The notes under the pieces: generated by a model
Databases searched by the model: none
The model's input: the letters and a program-made list of their open reading frames with translations, nothing else
What the model was told of the DNA's origin: nothing
Program-made: the position numbers and the translations under genes
Shown: piece after piece, positions 9,611 through 32,342 of the stretch
Position numbering within the stretch: the first letter of the stretch is position 1
Layout of the letters: every line of letters starts with the position of its first letter
From: Rhodothermales bacterium
GTDB taxonomy: Bacteria; Bacteroidota; Rhodothermia; Rhodothermales; JAHQVL01
Reading direction: 5' to 3'
Length of the DNA stretch: 41,170 nucleotides
Assembly: GCA_034439735.1 (NCBI GenBank)
Contig: JAWXAX010000075.1
Coordinates: forward strand, 1-41,170

Positions 9611-11182
9611 ATGCCAGCACCACATATTCTCTGGGCCGACGACGAGATCGATCTTCTCAGGCCGCATATCCTGTTCCTGGAGTCCAGGGGCTACCGGGTC
9701 TCGAGTGCCACAAATGGTGCCGATGCCGTGGAACGGGTTCGCCGGGAGCGATTCGAAGTCGTATTGCTGGACGAGCAGATGCCGGGCATGGGCGGTCTGG
9801 AAGCGCTGGCCGCGATCAAGCGGATCGCGCCGGATCTGCCGGTCGTGATCGTCACGAAGAGCGAGGAAGAAGATTTGATGGAGCAGGCGCTGGGCGACCA
9901 GATCAGCGACTATCTCACCAAGCCGGTGAATCCGAGCCAGATCCTGCTGACGATCAAGCGGCTGCTGGAGAGCTCCCGGCTGCTCAACGAGAAAGCGTCC
10001 CAGCAGTATCTACAATCGTTCGGTCAGATCAGTTCGATGCTGGCCGCACCGTTATCTCACTCGGAATGGGTCGACTTATATTTGCGGCTGATCGCCTACG
10101 ACCTTTCCCTGGGCGACGACAACGGCGTGCGGCAGGTGCTCGAAGATCAGTATCAGGAAGCGAACCGGGAGTTCGGACGGTTCATCGAGGAGTCCTACCG
10201 GGCCTGGGTCGCCGGCCTGGATCGCCCGCCCGACGCCAGCCGGCCCCTGCTGTCGCACGAGGTGGTGCCGCGGGTCGTGCTCCCGGAAGTCGGCGATGGC
10301 CGGCCGGTGATCTTTTTTGTGATCGATTGCATGCGGCACGATCAGTGGCTCGAATTCGAGTCCATGCTCGCGCCCCTTTTCGCCATCGAAAAGTCGTTTT
10401 ATTACTCTATCCTGCCTACCGCCACTCCGTACGCCCGGAATGCCATTTTTAGCGGACTGATGCCGAACGACCTCGAGCGTCGTTACCCCGCGCTGTGGTC
10501 CGAGGGGGAGGAGGACGAGCACAGCCGCAACCGCAACGAAGAGGCTTTCCTGGGCGACATGATCGCGCGCCAGAAGCCGGGGATCCGGATGCGGTACGAG
10601 AAACTCGTGACCACCCAACACGGCCGGGACTTCGCGCAGAATATTGTCGCGTTTACCCAGAGCGATCTCAGCGCCATCGTTGTCAACTTCGTCGACATCC
10701 TGGCGCACAGCCGGTCGGACTCCGCGGTGCTCAAGGAGCTGGCGCCGGACGTGCCGGCGTACCGCTCCCTCACGCGCACCTGGTTCCAGCATTCCTGGCT
10801 CTACCAGGCCTTTCAGACGCTGGCCGAAAAAGACTGCACGATTATCGTCACCAGCGACCACGGGGCCGTCCGCAGTCTCCGCCCGACGCGCGTCATCGGG
10901 GATCGCGAGACGTCCACGGCGCTGCGTTATAAGTACGGCCGTAACCTCAAGTGCGATAGCAAGCACGCGATATTCGTCAAGAACCCACAGGAGTTTGGCC
11001 TGCCGGGGCGGGGCATCCACACGAATTATATCATCGCGAAGGAAGATTATTACTTTGTCTACCCGACGAACTTCCACCACTACGTGAATCTCTACCGCGA
11101 CACGATGCAGCACGGCGGCGCCTCGATGGAGGAGATGATCCTGCCGATCGTGAAGCTCAAGCCGCGGCGGCGGAACGATTAG
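9611..11182 (+). CDS. porX: PorX: response regulator with PglZ-type phosphatase-fold effector
   Basis: The 523-residue product begins with a receiver domain (1-120: acidic DDE at 10-12, phospho-acceptor Asp54 in LLDEQMPG, Thr82, Lys104 in LTKPVNP). A helical linker (120-200) and an alkaline-phosphatase-superfamily PglZ domain (about 230-515) follow. Metal-site residues are recognisable: Asp239 in VIDCMRHD, Thr272 in LPTATPYAR, Asp362 and His366 in VDILAHSRSD, Asp416-His417 in TSDHGA, and His501 in MQHGG. This is the PorX architecture; PorX works with PorY and the sigma factor SigP to control type IX secretion in Porphyromonas, and its effector hydrolyses oligonucleotides in studied cases. It is the first gene of a same-strand run with the SpoIIE-type phosphatase. 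PorY and SigP are not in the window. Confidence 0.95.
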   Translation: MPAPHILWADDEIDLLRPHILFLESRGYRVSSATNGADAVERVRRERFEVVLLDEQMPGMGGLEALAAIKRIAPDLPVVIVTKSEEEDLMEQALGDQISDYLTKPVNPSQILLTIKRLLESSRLLNEKASQQYLQSFGQISSMLAAPLSHSEWVDLYLRLIAYDLSLGDDNGVRQVLEDQYQEANREFGRFIEESYRAWVAGLDRPPDASRPLLSHEVVPRVVLPEVGDGRPVIFFVIDCMRHDQWLEFESMLAPLFAIEKSFYYSILPTATPYARNAIFSGLMPNDLERRYPALWSEGEEDEHSRNRNEEAFLGDMIARQKPGIRMRYEKLVTTQHGRDFAQNIVAFTQSDLSAIVVNFVDILAHSRSDSAVLKELAPDVPAYRSLTRTWFQHSWLYQAFQTLAEKDCTIIVTSDHGAVRSLRPTRVIGDRETSTALRYKYGRNLKCDSKHAIFVKNPQEFGLPGRGIHTNYIIAKEDYYFVYPTNFHHYVNLYRDTMQHGGASMEEMILPIVKLKPRRRND

Positions 11183-11254: not shown

Positions 11255-12520
11255 ATGTCCATGCTCCCTCCCGAGGTAGAATCGCCTTTTGACGGGCTTG
11301 ATGCCATCGACACGATCGGCGAGTTGATGCTGGCGTCCCATTACGATCCCGAAGCGTTGTTGCAGGCGATCACCGATATCACCGTTCGCAAGATGGGCGT
11401 GAAGGGATGTGTATTGCGCATGCTGAACCCCGAGACGGGAGAACTCGGCATTCGATCCGTGACCGGTTTGAGTGAACGATTTCTGTTTTCAGCGCCCGTA
11501 ATCGATGCAAAGAACCGATTTCAAACAGTGATCGAGGAGCAGGGCGTCTACCGATTGCTGGATGTGCGCGCCGGCCAGGAGTTACAGTTCTCCGCAGCCG
11601 CGCTGGAAGAAGGCATCGCCTCGTTGCTGGCGGTAGGGCTCTTCAAGGACAAGAAAGTCATCGGCAGCCTGTCGGTCTACACCGCGCATCCGGTGTCGTT
11701 TTCGCATTACCACGAGCGGACGTTGCGCGTGCTGGCCCGATATGCGGTGATGGCCATCGAACTCGCGCGTCTCTATCGACAGGAATTGCAGGCGAAGCTC
11801 CAATCCCGCGACCTCTCCATCGCCGCCGGCATCCAGCATCGCATGCTCCCCGCGGTGATCCCGACAATCGAGGGATTTGATCTGGCCGCACGCCTGAACC
11901 CCTGGTACGAAGTGGGCGGGGATTTCTACGACATCGCGCGTATGGATGAGGAGTTACTGGGACTGGCGATGGGCGACGTGGCCGGCAAGGGGATGCCGGC
12001 GGCCCTCCTGATGTCGGGCGCACTCATGGCGCTGCGATCCCAGATGGGCAACAGCCGCCGCCTGCCCGAGATCGTCTCAGCGGTCAACGAGTTGCTCACG
12101 CGCGATACCCGAGCCGAAGAATACGCCAGCCTTATTTGCTGCCGGCTGGATCTTGAAGAATATGTTCTCTGTTACGTGAACGCCGGTCACCCCCCGCCCC
12201 TGTTGTTGCGAAATGGACGATTTACCATCCTCGACACCGGTGGCATGCCGCTGGGCATCCGGACGGGCATGACGTTCGACGAAGGCGTTATTCCACTGGA
12301 ATCGGGTGACCTGATCGTCTTCCGTACCGATGGCTGTACGACGGCGACCGATTCGCGTGGCCGTCTATTTGGTGAGCGGCGTTTCCGTAGTGCCATCCGT
12401 GCAAACGCAGGCGAACGTTCGTCCAGAATCGCCGACGCCATTCTGGCGGCGCTACGCCGGTTCGTGGGCGCCGCCGGCATGCGCGATGATCAAACCCTCA
12501 TGGTCCTTCGTATAGAATAA
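11255..12520 (+). CDS. GAF domain-SpoIIE/PP2C-type serine phosphatase
   Basis: The product (421 residues from the chosen ATG) has a GAF-type sensory domain at about 20-175 (IGELMLASHYDPEALLQAI at its start, ending in the long helix RTLRVLARYAVMAIELARLY). A short coiled linker (QAKLQSRDLSIAAGIQHRMLP) and a SpoIIE-type PP2M phosphatase (about 195-421) follow. Metal-binding acids are in YEVGGDFYD, MGDVAGKGMPAALLMS and MRDDQTLMVLRIE, all conserved. Such enzymes dephosphorylate Ser/Thr-phosphorylated proteins, typically anti-sigma-factor antagonists. A TTG start 24 nt upstream is possible but lies in an inverted repeat. It follows porX by 72 nt and precedes the antiporter by 8 nt, so co-transcription is likely. 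No STAS or anti-sigma partner is nearby. Confidence 0.9.
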   Translation: MSMLPPEVESPFDGLDAIDTIGELMLASHYDPEALLQAITDITVRKMGVKGCVLRMLNPETGELGIRSVTGLSERFLFSAPVIDAKNRFQTVIEEQGVYRLLDVRAGQELQFSAAALEEGIASLLAVGLFKDKKVIGSLSVYTAHPVSFSHYHERTLRVLARYAVMAIELARLYRQELQAKLQSRDLSIAAGIQHRMLPAVIPTIEGFDLAARLNPWYEVGGDFYDIARMDEELLGLAMGDVAGKGMPAALLMSGALMALRSQMGNSRRLPEIVSAVNELLTRDTRAEEYASLICCRLDLEEYVLCYVNAGHPPPLLLRNGRFTILDTGGMPLGIRTGMTFDEGVIPLESGDLIVFRTDGCTTATDSRGRLFGERRFRSAIRANAGERSSRIADAILAALRRFVGAAGMRDDQTLMVLRIE

Positions 12521-12528
12521 CCTCAGAT

Positions 12529-13470
12529 ATGACGACGGCTCTGTTTCTTGTTGGTGGACTCATTCTGCTCTATTTTGGCGCTGAAGCGCTCGTGCGTGGC
12601 GGCGCCGCGCTGGCGCTTCGTCTCGGGATCGCTCCTCTTATCGTCGGACTAACCGTGGTGGCGTTTGGCACCAGCGCCCCGGAGATGGTCGTAAGTGTGA
12701 GCGCGGCGACGACGGGGGCCGGCGGCATCGCCCTCGGCAACGTGATTGGATCGAACATTTGCAACATCGCGCTGATTCTGGGGCTGGCGGCGGTGATCCG
12801 CCCGATGAATGTGCAAGTCCAGCTGATCCGACTGGACATCCCGATCATGATCGGCGCGTCGGTGGCCCTTGTGGTGCTCCTGGCCGATGGAAGCCTCGGC
12901 CGGCTCGATGGCGCGTTGCTCGCCGGCACGATGGCGGTCTATCTCTGGTTCCTGATCGCAATGGCCCGACGCGACCGGAACGCGCTCGCCGGCGCCATGG
13001 AGGATACGGTCCACGCAACGTCGATTCCGACTGGGCGCGGGATCGTGATGGTCGTGGTCGGGCTCGCGCTGCTCATACTTGGCGGCATGTTCTTCGTCGA
13101 CGGCGCCGTGGCGTTGGCGGAAGGCCTCGGGGTGAGCGAGCGGGTGATCGGCCTAACGGTAATCGCTATTGGCACCAGCTTGCCCGAACTTGCCACATCG
13201 GTGGTGGCGTCGATCAAAAACGAAGGCGACATGTCGATCGGCAACGTGATCGGCTCGAATATCTTCAACATTCTCGCCATTCTGGGCATCAGCGCCCTCG
13301 TTGCGCCGCTTACCGCGACGGCGTTTTCGCTGCTCGATTTTGGCGTCATGCTGGGCGTGGCCATCTGCCTGTTTCCATTGGTCCGCTCCGGATTCCGCAT
13401 AAGCCGACTGGAAGGCGCGTTTTTGCTGGTGGTGTACGTCGTGTATGTCACCGTTGTCATCGTGCGCTGA
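12529..13470 (+). CDS. CaCA-family calcium/sodium antiporter (YrbG-like)
   Basis: The 313-residue product has about ten membrane helices arranged as two inverted halves. Each half carries an alpha-repeat: VVAFGTSAPEMVVSVSA with GNVIGSNICNIAL (about 44-82) and VIAIGTSLPELATSVVAS with GNVIGSNIFNILAI (about 210-252). The paired acidic residues (Glu in APE and in PEL) and the GSN motifs form the cation site. It should exchange Ca2+ for Na+ or H+ at the inner membrane. It starts 8 nt after the phosphatase gene, pointing to one transcript, and is convergent with the sulfur operon. Confidence 0.93.
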   Translation: MTTALFLVGGLILLYFGAEALVRGGAALALRLGIAPLIVGLTVVAFGTSAPEMVVSVSAATTGAGGIALGNVIGSNICNIALILGLAAVIRPMNVQVQLIRLDIPIMIGASVALVVLLADGSLGRLDGALLAGTMAVYLWFLIAMARRDRNALAGAMEDTVHATSIPTGRGIVMVVVGLALLILGGMFFVDGAVALAEGLGVSERVIGLTVIAIGTSLPELATSVVASIKNEGDMSIGNVIGSNIFNILAILGISALVAPLTATAFSLLDFGVMLGVAICLFPLVRSGFRISRLEGAFLLVVYVVYVTVVIVR

Positions 13471-13493
13471 CCGTGCCGCGGGCCGATCATCCG

Positions 13494-14021
13494 TTAAATA
13501 AAGATGATCTGCGTGTTGGCGCCTTCGGCCAGGGCGTACATCTCACCCACGGTGATGATGTCCTCCAGTTCGTCGATGAAGTCTTCCCGTTTCAGCTTGA
13601 ACATGTCGACGGCCAGCCGGCAGGCGTGGATCTTCCCACCGCTTTCCGAGATGATCTGCAGGAATTCGGAGACGGGCGGGATATCCAACTTCTCCATCTC
13701 CTTCTTCATCATCGTAGACACCAGCGCCTCGAAGCCCGGCAGGCCGGCGAGGATCGTGGGCATCTGTCGCATCATGGCCGGGTTACCGACGGTGGCGGTG
13801 TGCAGATGGTCCTGCGTGTCTTTCTTGATCGCCTCAAGCCCGAAAAACGTGAAGAAGAGTTCGGCCTGGATGCCCTCCATGAGGGCGCCGTTGGCCATGA
13901 TGAGGCCGGCGTAGACATCCTCCAGCGTCCCCTTCGAGACGATGACGAGCACTTTCTTGACGGGGTGTTTTTCCGGCCGGGGCACCGTAGCCGTTCCGGC
14001 GAGTTCAGCGGTGGCTTCCAT
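13494..14021 (-). CDS. DsrE/DsrF-like sulfur-carrier protein
   Basis: The 175-residue product has an N-terminal extension of about 20 residues, then KKVLVIVSKGTLEDVYAGLIMANGALMEGIQAELFFTFFGLEAI, the opening of the DsrE/DsrF/DrsH-like fold. Cys134 in GGKIHACRLAVDMF occupies the place of the family's active persulfide cysteine and is the only cysteine. Met-rich segments (residues 83-108) are also typical of the DsrE2 branch. Members pass sulfane sulfur to TusA or TusE/DsrC-type carriers. It is the last gene of the operon with the TusE-like and SQR-like genes (57 nt after the former), so it probably relays sulfur from sulfide oxidation. The precise partner is inferred. Confidence 0.88.
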   Translation of the reverse strand: MEATAELAGTATVPRPEKHPVKKVLVIVSKGTLEDVYAGLIMANGALMEGIQAELFFTFFGLEAIKKDTQDHLHTATVGNPAMMRQMPTILAGLPGFEALVSTMMKKEMEKLDIPPVSEFLQIISESGGKIHACRLAVDMFKLKREDFIDELEDIITVGEMYALAEGANTQIIFI

Positions 14022-14078
14022 GAGCGTGTCCGTGTGTGGGAGTATGGGTGTGAAGCGAAACGTTCAACGCATCAACGT

Positions 14079-14390
14079 TCAAACACAACTCACCGGCTTC
14101 GGAATGCCGGCGATGCGGCTGGCTTTTTTGAGTGGACCGCCGGGGAAGAGGTCGTAGAACTCCTTGATCGTGGTCACGTCGGACTTTCCAACGCGGCGAA
14201 TCGTTAGCTTTTCGCCGGCCGCGTCCTGCGCTCGGAGATAGTTGAGCACATCGAAGTGGCGATCGGTGAGCGCGATGCCTTCTTCGCGAGCGATTTCCTG
14301 GGCCAGATCGGGCGTCCATTCCGCGGGATCGGTGAAGTAGCCTTCGGCGTCGAGGTGGACCGGTGTGCCGGCGAGCAGGGTGCTTGTCAT
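14079..14390 (-). CDS. TusE/DsrC-family sulfur relay protein with a single cysteine
   Basis: The 103-residue product has full DsrC/TusE layout, with the C-terminal arm RIAGIPKPVSCV ending in the conserved penultimate Cys102. The second DsrC cysteine, 11 residues upstream in dissimilatory DsrC proteins, is replaced by Ser91. This places it with single-cysteine TusE-like proteins, not the two-cysteine DsrC that forms a trisulfide with sulfite reductase. Consistently, no dsrAB is present. It should carry a persulfide on Cys102. It lies 18 nt downstream of the SQR-like gene on the same strand. In tRNA thiolation TusE works with TusBCD, but here only a DsrE-like partner is adjacent, so a role in sulfide oxidation or sulfur trafficking is inferred. 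Confidence 0.9.
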   Translation of the reverse strand: MTSTLLAGTPVHLDAEGYFTDPAEWTPDLAQEIAREEGIALTDRHFDVLNYLRAQDAAGEKLTIRRVGKSDVTTIKEFYDLFPGGPLKKASRIAGIPKPVSCV

Positions 14391-14408
14391 GGTCGTGTCA
14401 GGTTGATT

Positions 14409-15662
14409 TCAGGAGACGGCTTCTTCTTCGAGTTCCTTGCCGGCGATGGACATATGCGCCGGCACGGGGAGTTCTTTCCCGGTCAGTAGCATGTGCCAGT
14501 AGACCCAGCGGAAGAAGAGCTTGCCCATGTGGTTGATTCTGGATTCCTTCAGCAGACTCATCGGGCCGAGGTGCGGCAGCGGGAATTTGCCCGGCAGCGG
14601 CTCGGTGACGTAGTTGAAGTCGATGAGCGTCGCTTTCCCGAACCCGGTTTCGATGAAACAGTTGGCGTGGCCGTCGAAGGAGGCCGTGAGCGGTTCGCCG
14701 GCTATGTAGTGGAGCACGTTTTCGATGAGCGTTTCGCTCATGAAATGGGCCACGGAGCCGGCCTTGGACGTCGGGACATTGGTAGCATCCCCGATGACGA
14801 ACATATTCGGGAATGCTTTCGACTGGAGCGTGTGTTTATCGGTCGGGATGTAGTTGAGGTCGTCGTCGTCGCTCAGGTCGCTGGCCTCGACGAAGTCTGC
14901 CCCCATGTTAACCGGCACGGAGACGAGCAGGTCGAACGGGACTTCCTTGCCGTCGTAGGAGACGAGCTTTTTCTCGGCCTCGTCGACACGTTCCAGGTAA
15001 AAGTCCGGCACGACGTTGATGCCCTTCTTCTCGAGCAGGCCGGAGAGCACTTCGGTGGCTTTGGGCTTGGTGAAGGCGCCGGCGAGGGGGGTGACGTAGA
15101 AGATATCCACCTTATCCCGCATGCCCTTCTCGGTGAAGTAGGCGTCGGCCAGGAAGGCGAATTCGAGGGGCGCGACGGGGCACTTGATGATGGTTTCGGC
15201 CAGGTTGATAACGAGCCGGCCGCCTTCCCAGTCCTCCAGCTTTCGCGCCAGACGGCTGGCGCCGTCGTGCGTGTAGAAGTCGAAGATGTCGGTATACCAG
15301 AGATCCCCTTTCAGGCCCGGGGTTTCTTCCGGCCGCGGCGAGGTGCCGGTGGCGACGATCAGCACATCGTACGAGAGCATGTCGCCGCTGGCGAGGCGGA
15401 CCTGGCTGGTGTCGCCCAGCACTTCCTCCACCTCATCCCAGATTACGTTGACGCCCTCGGGGAAGAAGTCGGTCTTGGCGCGCATGACTTCCTCCGGTTG
15501 GTAGATGCCGAACGGGATGAAGAGGAAGCCTGGTTGGTAGTAGTGGACGCGCTCTTTATCGACAATGGTCAGCTGCCATGCCGAAAGGTCGAGCCGGCGG
15601 TGCAACTTGTTGAGCATCATCGTGCCGGCTGTGCCGGCGCCCAGGATCAGCAGCTTTTTCAT
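14409..15662 (-). CDS. sulfide:quinone oxidoreductase-like FAD flavoprotein
   Basis: The 417-residue product starts with a dinucleotide-binding motif (LGAGTAG, residues 7-13). A second one-turn region lies near VLIVATGTSPRPEETPG (100-116), and the FAD-ending motif MFVIGDATNVPTSKAGSVAHF spans 287-307. Two cysteines occur, Cys161 in IIKCPVAPLEF and Cys335 in HANCFIE, at places where SQR-type enzymes hold redox or persulfide cysteines. A C-terminal amphipathic or hydrophobic tail (about 375-395, LFFRWVYWHMLLTG) fits monotopic membrane binding. SQR oxidises sulfide to sulfane sulfur with electrons going to quinone. It is first in the operon ahead of the TusE-like and DsrE-like genes. A related NADH-type flavoprotein cannot be fully excluded. 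Confidence 0.87.
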   Translation of the reverse strand: MKKLLILGAGTAGTMMLNKLHRRLDLSAWQLTIVDKERVHYYQPGFLFIPFGIYQPEEVMRAKTDFFPEGVNVIWDEVEEVLGDTSQVRLASGDMLSYDVLIVATGTSPRPEETPGLKGDLWYTDIFDFYTHDGASRLARKLEDWEGGRLVINLAETIIKCPVAPLEFAFLADAYFTEKGMRDKVDIFYVTPLAGAFTKPKATEVLSGLLEKKGINVVPDFYLERVDEAEKKLVSYDGKEVPFDLLVSVPVNMGADFVEASDLSDDDDLNYIPTDKHTLQSKAFPNMFVIGDATNVPTSKAGSVAHFMSETLIENVLHYIAGEPLTASFDGHANCFIETGFGKATLIDFNYVTEPLPGKFPLPHLGPMSLLKESRINHMGKLFFRWVYWHMLLTGKELPVPAHMSIAGKELEEEAVS

Positions 15663-15928
15663 ACCCGTTACCTGTTAAAGAGAAGGCCAATCTGCCGTGA
15701 AACTGTCACCGGGCAAAATAGCTGATGGCGCCTCCCAGGATTGCCGGGCGTCAGTCAATGGACGGGTAGTGCATGCGCTGTAGGGGTTGACGGGGAATAC
15801 ACTACACCCTTGTGGGTGCGTAAAAACGGTTCAAGGTTCGAGGGTTAAGGTTCAAAGGACCGCGCATCCTTGAACATTAAACCCCGAACCTTGAACCTTA
15901 ATCCTTGAACCTTAAACCTTAAACCGTT
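15663..15928. repeat. intergenic repeat tract with inverted GAACCTTGAACC copies
   Basis: Between the SQR-like gene and the heme lipoprotein lies a tract built from short units of the type TTCAAGGTT and its complement. CGGTTCAAGGTTCG (about 15827-15840) is answered by CGAACCTTGAACC in the right half (about 15885-15900), and the unit ACCTTAA or similar recurs four times up to 15923. Both orientations could fold into a long imperfect hairpin 3' of the lipoprotein gene. No gene is visible. The tract may be a transcript end for the minus-strand lipoprotein gene or a dispersed simple repeat. Confidence 0.6.
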
Positions 15929-18064
15929 CTAGCGTGCCAGCGGGTCGGGGCGGAGCTGGAATTTCATCACCTTGCTGGGCGTCCCTTTGCCGCCTTCCAT
16001 GTGAAACGGCGCGCGGGTGCTGATGGTGGTCCAGATACCGCGGCCTTTCCAGCCGGCGTCGGCGTCGTCGATACGGCCATCCATCCATTTTGTATAATAC
16101 CCGAGCGGATAGGGTACGCGCATGACGACCCATTCACCGTCCTTGAGGGCGAGCAGGCCTTCGGAGGCGTTGCCCGTGTTGATGGGGACGTTTTCGCCGA
16201 GGCCGAGGGTATTAAACTGGTCGACCCACGTATAGTAGCTCGCTTCGGCGCTGCCGGCGTAGTCGACCCCGCCGATCTGCGGCAACGGTTCGGCAAAGAA
16301 CTCCCAGCCTTCAGGGCAATGCTGGCCGGTAGCGGTGGGGCCGTTGAGCGCGCCGGTGCACTTGCGGCGGTCGAAGCTGGCGAGATGCCCACTGGCCAGC
16401 GCCACCCAGGCGACGCCGTTGCGGTCGACGTCCATCCCACGGGGCGACCATCCCACGACGGGCTCTCCGTTGTCATCCAGTGGCAGTTCAAAGCGTTCGG
16501 CCAGGGCCGTGTGCGTCGGGTCGGTGCCGGGGTTGAGGCGAACGACAGAGCCGGGGTAGCCCAGCGACGAGGCCCAGACGGAGCCGTCGGTGGCCGGCGA
16601 GACGGCGTAAAAGCCCGACGTGATCCGCATGTCCTTGTTCGGATCCACGGGCTGGTTGGGTTCTATCCAGGCATCCCGCTGTCCGTTGCCGTTGGTATCC
16701 AGGATGAGGGGTGTCCATCCCTGGGCGGCCATTTCGTCACCCGTTTCGTCGAACAACTTTCGGTTGAGCCAGCCCACGACCTGCCCTCCGCCGCTTGTCC
16801 ACAACGTGTGGTTTTCGTCCTCGGCGAACATCAGGTGGTGGGTGCTGAAGCAGGTGCCCACGTGCGTGAGTTGCTCGGTGGCGGGGTCGTACACGGCCAG
16901 GTGCCGGCCGGCGCGATTCACCGGAAACACCTTCGCGGAGGGGTGATCCGAGCCCTCTTTGCAGACGTCCGGGTTATCGGGCGGGCGGACGGTGGCGGTG
17001 AGCCACACGCGGCCGCGTTCGTCGAGCATCGGGTTGTGGACGTTGGTCTTGCTGTCCCACAACACGTCATCTTCCCAATAGGGTGAGGGTTCGAGCATCT
17101 CCGGGCCGGAGGAAGGCATCGTGGCGGGGTCGCGGACGGTGAGGGGGATTCGGCTGGCCGCGTTGGTCATCGGGTCGACGACCGGGATATAATCCGAGCT
17201 CAACTCCAATGCGCCGTAGACCGGTCCGTTGGCGTTGACCGTCGGGTCCCGCCGGTCAGTGGAGACGACGTCGTGGAGGTAGTGCTTCGGGTCAGCCCAG
17301 TCCCACTGAGTAATAACGATGTTGCGTTCGACGCCCTCCGGGCGGGGCGGCGTCTCCGGGACATCGCCGGCGGCGATCCGGTCGGTCCAGTCGGCAAACA
17401 TCTCCAACACTCGGTCGCTACCCAGGGAAGCGACGGTGCTCGTCATCTGGCCACCGGCCTGGCCGGACTTGAGCCGGCGTTCCCAGGCCTGTTCAGTCGT
17501 CGGGTGCTCCGGAAATGCAGGGTGGAAGGACCGCGTCCCGATGCTGCCCAGGGCGTGGCAGGCCGTGCAGGTGCCGGACTTGACGGTGCGCAGGAAGTCG
17601 GCCTGCGTTTTTAGATTCGGCGACAGGCCGTTACCCTCTGGCCCGGTGCCCGGGAAGTCGGTTCTGGGGGGTACTTCCAGCAACGAGAGCCAGTAGCCGG
17701 CCGGGTAATAGTGTGCGGCAGCGCGCTCGTCCGGCGCGGGCACCGCCTGGAGGTCGAGCGCCCGGCCCGGCTGCGCCTGGACCTTCGGGGAGTCGGTCAA
17801 TCCGTAACCACGGACCCATACGTCGTACGTGGCGGCCGGCAGCTCGGGCAGCACGTACCGCCCCTCATCGTCCGTGACGACGATCTTGGCGAAGGTAGTA
17901 GCCAACTCCTCCGTTTCGGCGATCACCCATACGCCGGCTTCGGGACCGTTCGGCCCGGTGACGACGCCTTCGATCACGTCATCCGGATGCTCGGGCGCAC
18001 AGCCGCCCAGAGCCAATAGGGTGAGAAGAAGGTAGGGGAGAAGCGGATGTGATCGGATCTGCAT
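15929..18064 (-). CDS. lipoprotein with carboxypeptidase-regulatory-like domain, c-type heme motif and propeller-like region
   Basis: The start is the ATG before a lipoprotein signal (hydrophobic 8-20, lipobox ALGGC with Cys22), giving 711 residues; an upstream in-frame start lacks such a signal directly after it. Residues 28-105 form a carboxypeptidase-regulatory-like Ig sandwich (GVVTGPNGPEAGVWVIAE, YVLPELPAATYDVWVRGYGL). CTACH at 166-170 is a single c-type heme-binding motif inside a small helical domain (to about 245). The remaining 450 residues carry recurrent strands with Trp/Gly/Asp (for example RVWLTATV, GSVWASSLG, GVAWVALASG), as in a six- or seven-bladed propeller. It may be an extracytoplasmic electron-transfer or oxidase subunit. 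No dehydrogenase or cytochrome partner is adjacent. Function is inferred from domains only. Confidence 0.85.
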   Translation of the reverse strand: MQIRSHPLLPYLLLTLLALGGCAPEHPDDVIEGVVTGPNGPEAGVWVIAETEELATTFAKIVVTDDEGRYVLPELPAATYDVWVRGYGLTDSPKVQAQPGRALDLQAVPAPDERAAAHYYPAGYWLSLLEVPPRTDFPGTGPEGNGLSPNLKTQADFLRTVKSGTCTACHALGSIGTRSFHPAFPEHPTTEQAWERRLKSGQAGGQMTSTVASLGSDRVLEMFADWTDRIAAGDVPETPPRPEGVERNIVITQWDWADPKHYLHDVVSTDRRDPTVNANGPVYGALELSSDYIPVVDPMTNAASRIPLTVRDPATMPSSGPEMLEPSPYWEDDVLWDSKTNVHNPMLDERGRVWLTATVRPPDNPDVCKEGSDHPSAKVFPVNRAGRHLAVYDPATEQLTHVGTCFSTHHLMFAEDENHTLWTSGGGQVVGWLNRKLFDETGDEMAAQGWTPLILDTNGNGQRDAWIEPNQPVDPNKDMRITSGFYAVSPATDGSVWASSLGYPGSVVRLNPGTDPTHTALAERFELPLDDNGEPVVGWSPRGMDVDRNGVAWVALASGHLASFDRRKCTGALNGPTATGQHCPEGWEFFAEPLPQIGGVDYAGSAEASYYTWVDQFNTLGLGENVPINTGNASEGLLALKDGEWVVMRVPYPLGYYTKWMDGRIDDADAGWKGRGIWTTISTRAPFHMEGGKGTPSKVMKFQLRPDPLAR

Positions 18065-18264
18065 GGCGTTAAGGCGCACAAACGGGCCGAAGTAGGTGGA
18101 TGGGAGGGGCGGAATCGCACGGATTTCGCGCGATGTTTGACAAAATGGACGATCCAGACTATACCTGAAGGTAGCCGCAGGGCGGATGAGTAACAAGCGT
18201 CTTCGCCCCGCCGGCTCGTCGATATCCTCGCCCATTCTATTTCCAAGTAATCGCTGTACCTGGC
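18065..18264. other. divergent intergenic region
   Basis: This 200-nt gap lies between the heme lipoprotein gene and the PAS remnant. It has a non-coding-looking frame antisense to the PAS gene start. No hairpin or repeat stands out, and no promoter can be placed. Confidence 0.35.
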
Positions 18265-19162
18265 ATGGCCCGTCCTACCATCTCTCCGCTCAACAAAGCC
18301 CGCGACTTCTTCTTCTCTGAACTTTTATTCTCGGTTACGGATAAACGCGGCATCATCGAGTTCGGCAACGATGTCTTCGCACGGATCGCCGGCTATTCGC
18401 TGAAGGAGATGGTGGGTGAGCCTCATAACATCATCCGTCATTCGGACATGCCACGGGCGGTGTTCAAGGTGTTATGGGACTACCTGGAGGCCGGCCAGAC
18501 GATCGTCGCTCAATGCCGAGATCGCCTCCAACCACCTCGGTGAGCGGGGGCTAGCGCTGGCGGAGATTGCCGGCCAGATGAGCGCCCAGACCGCTGCCAG
18601 GATTGGTTTGATCGGCTCGCTCCACAGCTCGATTTTCGACCTCCAGGGGCCGCTGCTCCGGTTGGTGTTCGACGTGCTCGTCGCCACCCTCGACATTGAA
18701 ATGGCCAACCTGTTCCTCGACGAAGTAACGGCCGTTGGAGACGGTGTGGAAGAAATCCTGGAGGAAGACGATCAGATGACGGGGTACATCACGATGCTCG
18801 TCCATCTATTTGATGTACGGGCGGAAACGCTTATCCCCAACCTGATCGATATCAGCGGCCGGCTGCAAACGATTCGCGACCTTCTCTCCCGCCTCCAGCG
18901 GTATATGCGGATGCTGAGCGTCGTCCAGATTTCGGGCCAGGTCGAGGCCGCGCGTATCCCGGATTCGTTAAACTTCTCCGCCATCTTCGAGGAAGTACTC
19001 AGCCAGCTCAACCAGGCCAACCGGCAGGTGAACGGCTTTGGTAAACTCGTGTCCGATCGGCTACGGGAGAATGCGGCCGTGCCGGAATCCGCCCAGGGGC
19101 TGGGAACGCTGCTCGTCCATACGCGCGAAACTACCGCGGCGCTAACACCGGCTCCGGCGTGA
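18265..19162 (+). pseudogene. PAS-domain sensor broken by an out-of-frame internal deletion
   Basis: The first frame encodes an Aer-like PAS domain (SVTDKRGIIEFGNDVFARIAGYSLKEMVGEPHNIIRHSDMPRAVF, then VLWDYLEAGQTIVA) and ends within about 14 residues in nonsense (QCRDRLQPPR) at 18543. The next frame resumes at about 18512 with LNAEIASNHLGERGLALAEIA and continues as a helical, coiled-coil-rich C-terminal half to 19162, with hydrophobic heptads and long leucine-rich helices. The PAS fold's second half and linker, which would normally follow QTIVA, are missing. The junction therefore joins the two halves one frame apart. The parent would have been a PAS sensor with a helical signalling domain of methyl-accepting type. 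It is judged inactive; re-initiation of the second half is possible but untested. Confidence 0.75.
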
Positions 19163-30674: not shown

Positions 30675-32342
30675 ATGCAACGGCTACTACTTCTTGCGTT
30701 TACGATTATCGCGCTGCCTATGGCCGCGTTTGCACAACCGGAGATCCGCGTGACGGACGCGGACATTGCTCCAGGTTCGGTGACGACGTGGACGTCGGCG
30801 AACACGTACATCCTGGACGGTGTGGTGTTCGTGGAAGACGGCGCGACGCTGATCATCGAGCCGGGTACGGTGATCAAGGCGGAATCGGGCCAGGGCAACG
30901 AGGCCTCGGCGCTGGTTGTGACGAAGGACGCGACGATCCTGGCGGAAGGGACGGCTTCGACCCCGATCGTGTTCACGTCGGTGCTGGACAACGGGAGCCT
31001 GACGTTCCAGGACCGCGGCCTGTGGGGCGGCGTGGTGATCCTGGGCCAGGCCTCGACAAACAACCCGACGGACGGCGGCGTGAAGGAGGTAGAGGGAATC
31101 AATGAGATCGTGGCCGAGGGAGACGACCGGGCAGAGTACGGTGGCACGGACGACGCGCACAACTCGGGCATCTTCCGGTACGTTTCGATCCGCCACTCGG
31201 GAATCGCGGTGGGCGACCAGGCCGGCAACGAGATCCAGGGCCTGACCCTCGGCGGCGTGGGCTCGGGCACGGTGATCGAATACGTGGAGTCGTTCGCAAG
31301 CGCGGACGACGGGTTCGAGTGGTTCGGGGGTACGGTGAACACGAAGTACCTGGTGTCGGCGTTCAACGAAGACGACGCGTTCGACTGGGACGAAGGGTAC
31401 CGCGGCAAGGGCCAGTTCTGGTTCGCGATCCAGGGGAACGACGTGGGTGGCCGTACGGCGGAGCAGGACGGCGCGCTGGGGAACGAGTTTTTCGAGCCGT
31501 ATTCGATCCCTCAGCTCTCGAACGTGACGTACATCGGCCCGGACGCCGGCACGGCGGAAGGGGACGGCGCGGAGATGCTGATCTTCCGTGACAACAGCGG
31601 CGGCAAGTACTGGAATTCGATCTTCACGGAGTACAGCGCATTGACCGGCGGGAACGGGATTCTGGTGGAAGTGGTGGCGGGCGATGCGAACAAGCCGGCG
31701 GACAGCGAGGACCGGATGGCGAACGGCGATCTGGTGCTGGCGAACAACCTGTGGTGGGGCTTCGGGGACAACTCGATCGGAGCGATCGCGCCGCAGGACT
31801 TTGTTCAGACCCACCTGCTGGCGAACGCAAACCGGATCGCGAACCCGCAGCTTCGGGGGGTGAGTCGTGAGGCGGACGGCGGCCTGGACCCTCGGCCGGC
31901 GGTGGGCAGCCCGGCACTCGACGCCACCCAGGTGGCCGACCCGGGCGATGCGTTTTTTACGACGGTCCCCTACGTGGGGGCCTTTGGCGATGAAAATTGG
32001 TTGGTGGGATGGACCGCTCTGGGCGCACTAGGCTTCACGACCGGCGTCGCCATCGAGCCGATCTCCAGCGAAGTGCCGTCGTTCTTCGCGCTGAAGCAGA
32101 ACTACCCGAATCCGTTTAACCCGACGACGACGATCGAATTCCAGCTGGTCAGCGCCGGCGCGATCCGCCTCGCGGTGTACGACGTGCTGGGCCGCGAAGT
32201 GGCCCTGCTCGCCGACGGCGTCCAGCCTGCCGGCACGTACAGCGTCCGCTTCGACGCGCGGGACATGGCTTCGGGTCTTTACTTCTACACGCTGGAGGGT
32301 AACGGGGTTAACAGCACCCGCAAGATGCTGCTGATCAAGTAA
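30675..32342 (+). CDS. secreted type IX cargo protein paired with the TonB receptor
   Basis: The 555-residue product has a signal peptide (LLLLAFTIIALPMAAFA-QP) and a long region of beta-helix-like repeats. Examples are NTYILDGVVFVEDGATLIIEPGT, the WGGVVILGQ segment, SIRHSGIAVG and the SFASADDGFEWFGG segment. It ends in a type IX sorting domain of about 85 residues (FALKQNYPNPFNPTTTIEFQ, then GREVALLADGVQPAGTYSVRFD, then GLYFYTLE, ending MLLIK). From memory, similar proteins with WGGxVILG segments sit beside TonB receptors in this phylum, with no proven substrate. It follows the receptor by 184 nt with a hairpin between, and a strong terminator follows. Its interior uses codons unlike its ends. 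Confidence 0.87.
   Translation: MQRLLLLAFTIIALPMAAFAQPEIRVTDADIAPGSVTTWTSANTYILDGVVFVEDGATLIIEPGTVIKAESGQGNEASALVVTKDATILAEGTASTPIVFTSVLDNGSLTFQDRGLWGGVVILGQASTNNPTDGGVKEVEGINEIVAEGDDRAEYGGTDDAHNSGIFRYVSIRHSGIAVGDQAGNEIQGLTLGGVGSGTVIEYVESFASADDGFEWFGGTVNTKYLVSAFNEDDAFDWDEGYRGKGQFWFAIQGNDVGGRTAEQDGALGNEFFEPYSIPQLSNVTYIGPDAGTAEGDGAEMLIFRDNSGGKYWNSIFTEYSALTGGNGILVEVVAGDANKPADSEDRMANGDLVLANNLWWGFGDNSIGAIAPQDFVQTHLLANANRIANPQLRGVSREADGGLDPRPAVGSPALDATQVADPGDAFFTTVPYVGAFGDENWLVGWTALGALGFTTGVAIEPISSEVPSFFALKQNYPNPFNPTTTIEFQLVSAGAIRLAVYDVLGREVALLADGVQPAGTYSVRFDARDMASGLYFYTLEGNGVNSTRKMLLIK

Follow-up and report, generated by a model that had tools for sequence, protein, structure and literature searches.

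A conserved operon of a type III sulfide:quinone oxidoreductase, a single-cysteine DsrC/TusE-family carrier and a DsrE2-like protein as a candidate persulfide relay

DsrC-family carriers are usually taken as marks of either dissimilatory sulfur metabolism or tRNA thiolation. In Allochromatium vinosum, DsrC receives sulfur from the sulfurtransferase DsrEFH and, in the portions of PMC3397948 used here, binds it solely at its penultimate cysteine: transfer from DsrEFH-Cys78 to DsrC-Cys111 needs this penultimate residue only, working without DsrC-Cys100, and transfer in the reverse direction was not detected. According to the same portions, settings without DsrAB nearly always have Ala, Ser or Thr in place of the second DsrC cysteine (PMC3397948).

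The three genes studied here look like a variation on sulfur relays of the kinds already known, and not like a system new in every part. Like DsrEFH-DsrC of A. vinosum, as described in those portions of PMC3397948, they combine a DsrE-family sulfurtransferase with a DsrC-family carrier that has a penultimate cysteine; as in the E. coli TusA-TusBCD-TusE-MnmA system, their DsrC-family carrier has just one cysteine; and like the DsrE3A-DsrE2B-TusA system of Metallosphaera cuprina, they place a DsrE2-type protein in a sulfur-trafficking cluster (PMC4175335, excerpt). Unlike A. vinosum, however, our locus has one DsrE2-like protein rather than three subunits, lacks the second DsrC cysteine, comes without any DsrA over cut-off and holds a sulfide:quinone oxidoreductase (SQR) within the same operon, while the M. 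cuprina cluster, in the excerpt of PMC4175335, joins TusA to heterodisulfide-reductase-like genes in place of the SQR and DsrC-family carrier, without TusA, seen here.

The window, i.e. the whole stretch of DNA analysed, is a contig in its entire length of 41,170 bases, and the assembly to which it belongs has 5.13 Mb and is 98.1% complete. Transcribed in this order on its minus strand are genes for the SQR (14409-15662, 417 aa), the carrier (14079-14390, 103 aa) and the DsrE2-like sulfurtransferase (13494-14021, 175 aa), which bears out the earlier note in that open reading frames for three sulfur genes lie head to tail with short gaps of 18 bases (14391-14408, SQR to carrier, where many relatives but not the window have a DUF1641 gene) and 57 bases (carrier to DsrE2-like gene). 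A 768-aa protein encoded on the same strand ends at 15929, 266 bases upstream of SQR, and downstream of the trio lies a convergent Na/Ca exchanger gene; G+C of the trio is 0.599 vs 0.616 for the window, and no Rfam match to an RNA element was found in 12400-18300. Short units (for example ggttcaagg, ccttgaacctt), some of them inverted, are repeated at 15820-15930, between the start of SQR and the gene upstream.

Our phylum sample comprised 296 genomes, 124 of them with any SQR-like match at E 1e-20. In all 27 other genomes whose SQR homologue reaches at least 54% identity, carrier and DsrE2-like genes follow SQR downstream with or without one extra gene between (27/27), a recurrence which argues that the arrangement is not due to chance. 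Among named loci, which are the best 80 of at least 586 confirmed relatives and thus biased towards close ones, the carrier was found in 78/80 and the DsrE2-like gene, hence both partners, in 74/80, so that the conservation the earlier note had left to be checked is borne out in both sets. Both carrier misses in these best 80 of at least 586 relatives lie at contig ends, and five of the six DsrE2-like misses are no more than about 1 kb from one; the sixth is locus L064, where the carrier is broken and no DsrE2-like gene was found within 6 kb. At least one locus is shared by the 27 of the sample and the 80 named ones (the SQRs of L040 and L126 are identical), and our counts keep this overlap. 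DUF1641 matches occur in 71/107 loci (best 80 of at least 586 included), in many between SQR and carrier, with the L041 protein, for example, exceeding the PF07849 cut-off (37.4 > 21 bits). Pairwise distances of the three proteins correlate across 99 loci (r 0.66-0.80; best 80 of at least 586 included), and 0/999 SQR-carrier permutations reached the observed correlation in a test that ignores shared species history and from which, as from the tree below, the broken L064 carrier was excluded. Together, we regard the trio as well supported as a genetic unit: a conserved operon for sulfide oxidation that also encodes two sulfur carriers, each with a cysteine.

Record titles among the matches listed name Bacteroidota, Rhodothermia, Ignavibacteria, Calditrichota, KSB1, Opitutales and Chloroflexota, and species among them include Marivirga sericea, Lutimonas halocynthiae and Draconibacterium sediminis. 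The order of the genes in M. sericea DSM 4125 (L065) matches that of the window. Close to home the trio is patchy, being present in 2/29 other genomes of the same order and in 0/1 of the same family. Outside family f23, 28 of the 30 genomes with a DsrC-family match in the 296-genome sample have the trio, so their carrier sits in an SQR operon and in neither of the settings for which DsrC-family proteins usually serve as marks. Our search of open-access literature gave no account of this operon, which does not make it unpublished. Family f23 probably corresponds to green-sulfur bacteria, judging from its dsr genes, and contains the next SQR group (about 42-47% identity), whose partner genes are absent downstream at the two loci examined. 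In one f23 genome (G201) an SQR homologue lies, by eye, beside dsrN, dsrC, dsrA and dsrB, and SQR homologue and DsrC are within 12.5 kb of each other in 10 of the 39 f23 genomes holding both, the remainder having them far apart or on separate contigs. This proximity weakly suggests that a link between SQR and DsrC predates the trio.

As for the first gene, its product passes the NF049943 model for type III SQR (632 bits vs a cut-off of 525). An HxxU motif typifies the selenoprotein form of this type (table in PMC13188914) and matches H332-A-N-C335 here; unlike that form, our SQR has Cys rather than selenocysteine at 335, as do 108/108 aligned SQRs (best 80 of at least 586 included), and on these grounds we file it under the cysteine form alone. 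In an alignment with human SQR (8dhk), C161 and C335 fall on the cysteines of KCAGAP and TSCPL, which we take to be the redox pair of that enzyme, and together with H332 they are invariant in 108/108 sequences (window, 27 sample genomes and the best 80 of at least 586 relatives). An AlphaFold2 model (27-row alignment, pLDDT 90.3) has human SQR 6oi6 as its top structural match (Z 46.2, 2.5 A over 396 residues), followed by other SQRs (Z about 39-40) and flavocytochrome c (37-39); type 2 NADH dehydrogenase, considered as a better fold, scored Z 35-36 vs 46 for human SQR and was rejected. The structural alignment shows only 26% identity with human SQR, which we count against the relay reading put forward below. 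From family, residues and predicted fold, we infer that the protein would oxidise sulfide at the membrane and pass electrons to quinone.

The carrier exceeds superfamily cut-offs (PF04358, 89.1 > 24.9; TIGR03342, 76.1 > 53.5) and fits neither subtype of the DsrC/TusE superfamily, since unlike E. coli TusE it falls under the TusE equivalog cut-off (PRK11508, 59.5 < 191) and unlike dissimilatory DsrC it has no second cysteine. Its only cysteine, Cys102, is penultimate, and Ser stands 11 residues ahead, at the position of the second DsrC cysteine, as the earlier note had described. This Ser is nothing special: Ala, Ser or Thr is the published norm without DsrAB in the portions of PMC3397948 used here, which also disposes of the single cysteine as an anomaly. 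Across 107 loci (27 sample genomes and the best 80 of at least 586 relatives), 105 carriers were matched and 104 were complete, with L064 counted; the penultimate cysteine is kept in 102/104 and the second DsrC cysteine occurs in 0/104, its place being taken in the 102 cysteine-keeping carriers by Ser (49), Ala (30) or Thr (23). The two exceptions are L064, whose broken carrier runs into other sequence, and L033 in genome G239, and they may mean either that the carrier cysteine is dispensable in places or that assembly or sequencing was at fault. In L033 (6490-6783, minus strand) Tyr replaces the sole cysteine with the remaining operon intact, which may reflect either a sequencing error or true loss of the sulfur site. 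The closest records to the window's carrier in a tree are from Rhodothermales and Rhodothermia, and trio carriers group together (96/92), a second copy from G005 inside, and apart from E. coli TusE, with few columns and long branches making this grouping weak evidence.

Turning to partners, tblastn with nine related proteins as queries gave no match to rhodanese, dsrA, dsrB or tusA in the window. The earlier note had listed dsrAB, tusBCD and rhodanese genes as missing there; for dsrA and dsrB this agrees with the tblastn result, and our genome search found DsrA (TIGR02064) over cut-off in 0/28 trio genomes (f23 controls 2/2 positive), but the rhodanese part applies to the window alone, rhodaneses being present in 28/28 trio genomes with 8 matches in the window's own. 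For the Tus proteins, no PF01206, PF02635 or PF04077 match was obtained in the window's genome at E 0.001 (E. coli control positive in each), which contrasts with E. coli in the lack of any TusA, TusB or TusC/D match. TusA is found in 1/28 trio genomes (G188) and TusB in 0/28. PF02635 matches do occur in 20/28 trio genomes, no two of them within 2 kb, so that at this sensitivity there is no TusC/TusD pair (0/28); a complete TusBCD elsewhere in the genome, which the earlier note saw as speaking against its idea if accompanied by normal tRNA thiolation, was thus not found. In principle, the DsrE2-like protein might replace TusBCD and the carrier might feed MnmA in the manner of E. coli TusE with SQR as sulfur source for tRNA thiolation, a scenario that the single-cysteine TusE pattern and the presence of MnmA in 28/28 trio genomes would fit. 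MnmA is, however, also found in 20/20 genomes of the order or family that have no DsrC-family match at all, so MnmA in this group does not need the carrier and thiolation becomes less likely; with TusA and TusB as rare as stated above, the carrier under the TusE cut-off and its gene accompanying SQR, we consider this scenario very unlikely.

The third protein exceeds the PF13686 cut-off (108.7 > 25 bits) and is named DsrE2-like, not DsrE2, because it misses the DsrE2 equivalog cut-off (NF047629, 99.3 < 210). Its gene was found in 101/107 loci, 99 of them complete (27 sample genomes and the best 80 of at least 586), and its single cysteine, Cys134, is kept in 99/99 complete orthologues, 96 by pattern and three by eye (best 80 of at least 586 included). 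The structure model (pLDDT 88.9) best matches the DsrE-family structures 2qs7 (Z 17.9) and 3pnx (Z 17.8), and it also matches DsrEFH (Z 14.4) and TusBCD (Z 14.1). A. vinosum DsrE2 has two transmembrane helices in the excerpt of PMC12998232; by Kyte-Doolittle, no 19-residue window reaches 1.6 in 21/21 complete trio proteins, nor in 2/2 f23 proteins.

Our preferred reading, built on observations (presence of the genes, their linkage, conservation of the cysteines and lack of the partners), is that the trio is a persulfide relay starting from sulfide oxidation, to which we assign a probability of roughly 0.6 and of which we infer the activity, direction and acceptor. A DsrC-family carrier with a single C-terminal cysteine can hold a persulfide and cannot form the DsrC trisulfide; with one such cysteine, it should pass sulfur on, as TusE does. 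SQR would oxidise sulfide via Cys161/Cys335 at the membrane, with electrons going to quinone; sulfane sulfur may then reach Cys134 of the DsrE2-like protein, either directly or via a small persulfide, and move on to Cys102 of the carrier, a direction we adopt from the one-way DsrEFH to DsrC transfer described above; the carrier, finally, would hand it to an acceptor other than DsrAB and not via TusBCD. Linkage alone is no proof of sulfur transfer. The reduced persulfide relay of the earlier note is supported in part: it fits the nearly invariable trio and the lack in its genomes of TusB, a TusC/TusD pair, DsrA over cut-off and mostly TusA; rhodaneses are lacking in the window alone. More tentatively, and with the odds somewhat against it, the trio may form a third DsrC-family pathway beside Dsr and Tus, in which SQR is coupled to a dedicated relay of DsrE2-like protein and single-cysteine carrier, often with DUF1641, and to an undescribed acceptor; with the same reserve, such a pathway might span Bacteroidota, Rhodothermota, Ignavibacteriota, Calditrichota, Verrucomicrobiota and Chloroflexota. 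If the relay is real, many uncultured Bacteroidota may route sulfur from sulfide into a pathway to which present marker sets are blind; the named strains among our loci make it testable.

No acceptor gene that accompanies the trio everywhere was found. Sox as partner was rejected, SoxY being present in only 1/28 trio genomes (G005, where it adjoins the operon). Sulfide detoxification, in which a persulfide dioxygenase-rhodanese would receive the carriers' sulfur and make sulfite, draws on a 480-aa metallo-beta-lactamase-rhodanese in the window's genome (best PDB match 3tp9, E 1.2e-116) that adjoins a sulfate permease-family gene (L142, G000:C53, 113-3303), the two forming a possible sulfide-detoxification pair. 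Homologues of the dioxygenase-rhodanese are present in 16/28 trio genomes vs 96/268 others (Fisher p 0.039, kinship ignored), yet 12/28 trio genomes lack one at the threshold used, and in most order-mates one occurs in the absence of the trio. This excludes the protein as a universal acceptor and leaves us to judge detoxification unlikely as an account of the trio.

That the trio serves respiration of sulfur or polysulfide, partnered by a Psr/Phs/Soe-like molybdoenzyme, seems highly improbable. Such a role would suit L111, whose operon lies, by eye, beside part of a molybdoenzyme, a ferredoxin subunit, an NrfD-like protein, two YeeE-like proteins and two rhodaneses, and also the FNR/CRP-like gene seen by eye in 41/108 loci (best 80 of at least 586 included), mostly divergent upstream, but molybdoenzyme neighbourhoods are confined to few loci (clusters of 3-4/108, best 80 of at least 586 included) and do not include the window. 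The sulfur-related block of L111 spans positions -5875 to 3834, counted from the start of SQR, and, again by eye, also contains TatC. The FNR/CRP-type regulators have N-terminal cysteines by eye, and their genes, absent from the window, are nearly always divergent and upstream of SQR. Elsewhere in the window, 9611-11182 encodes a response regulator fused to a PglZ domain, an arrangement we take to be PorX of type 9 secretion, and 30675-32342 a Por secretion tail protein.
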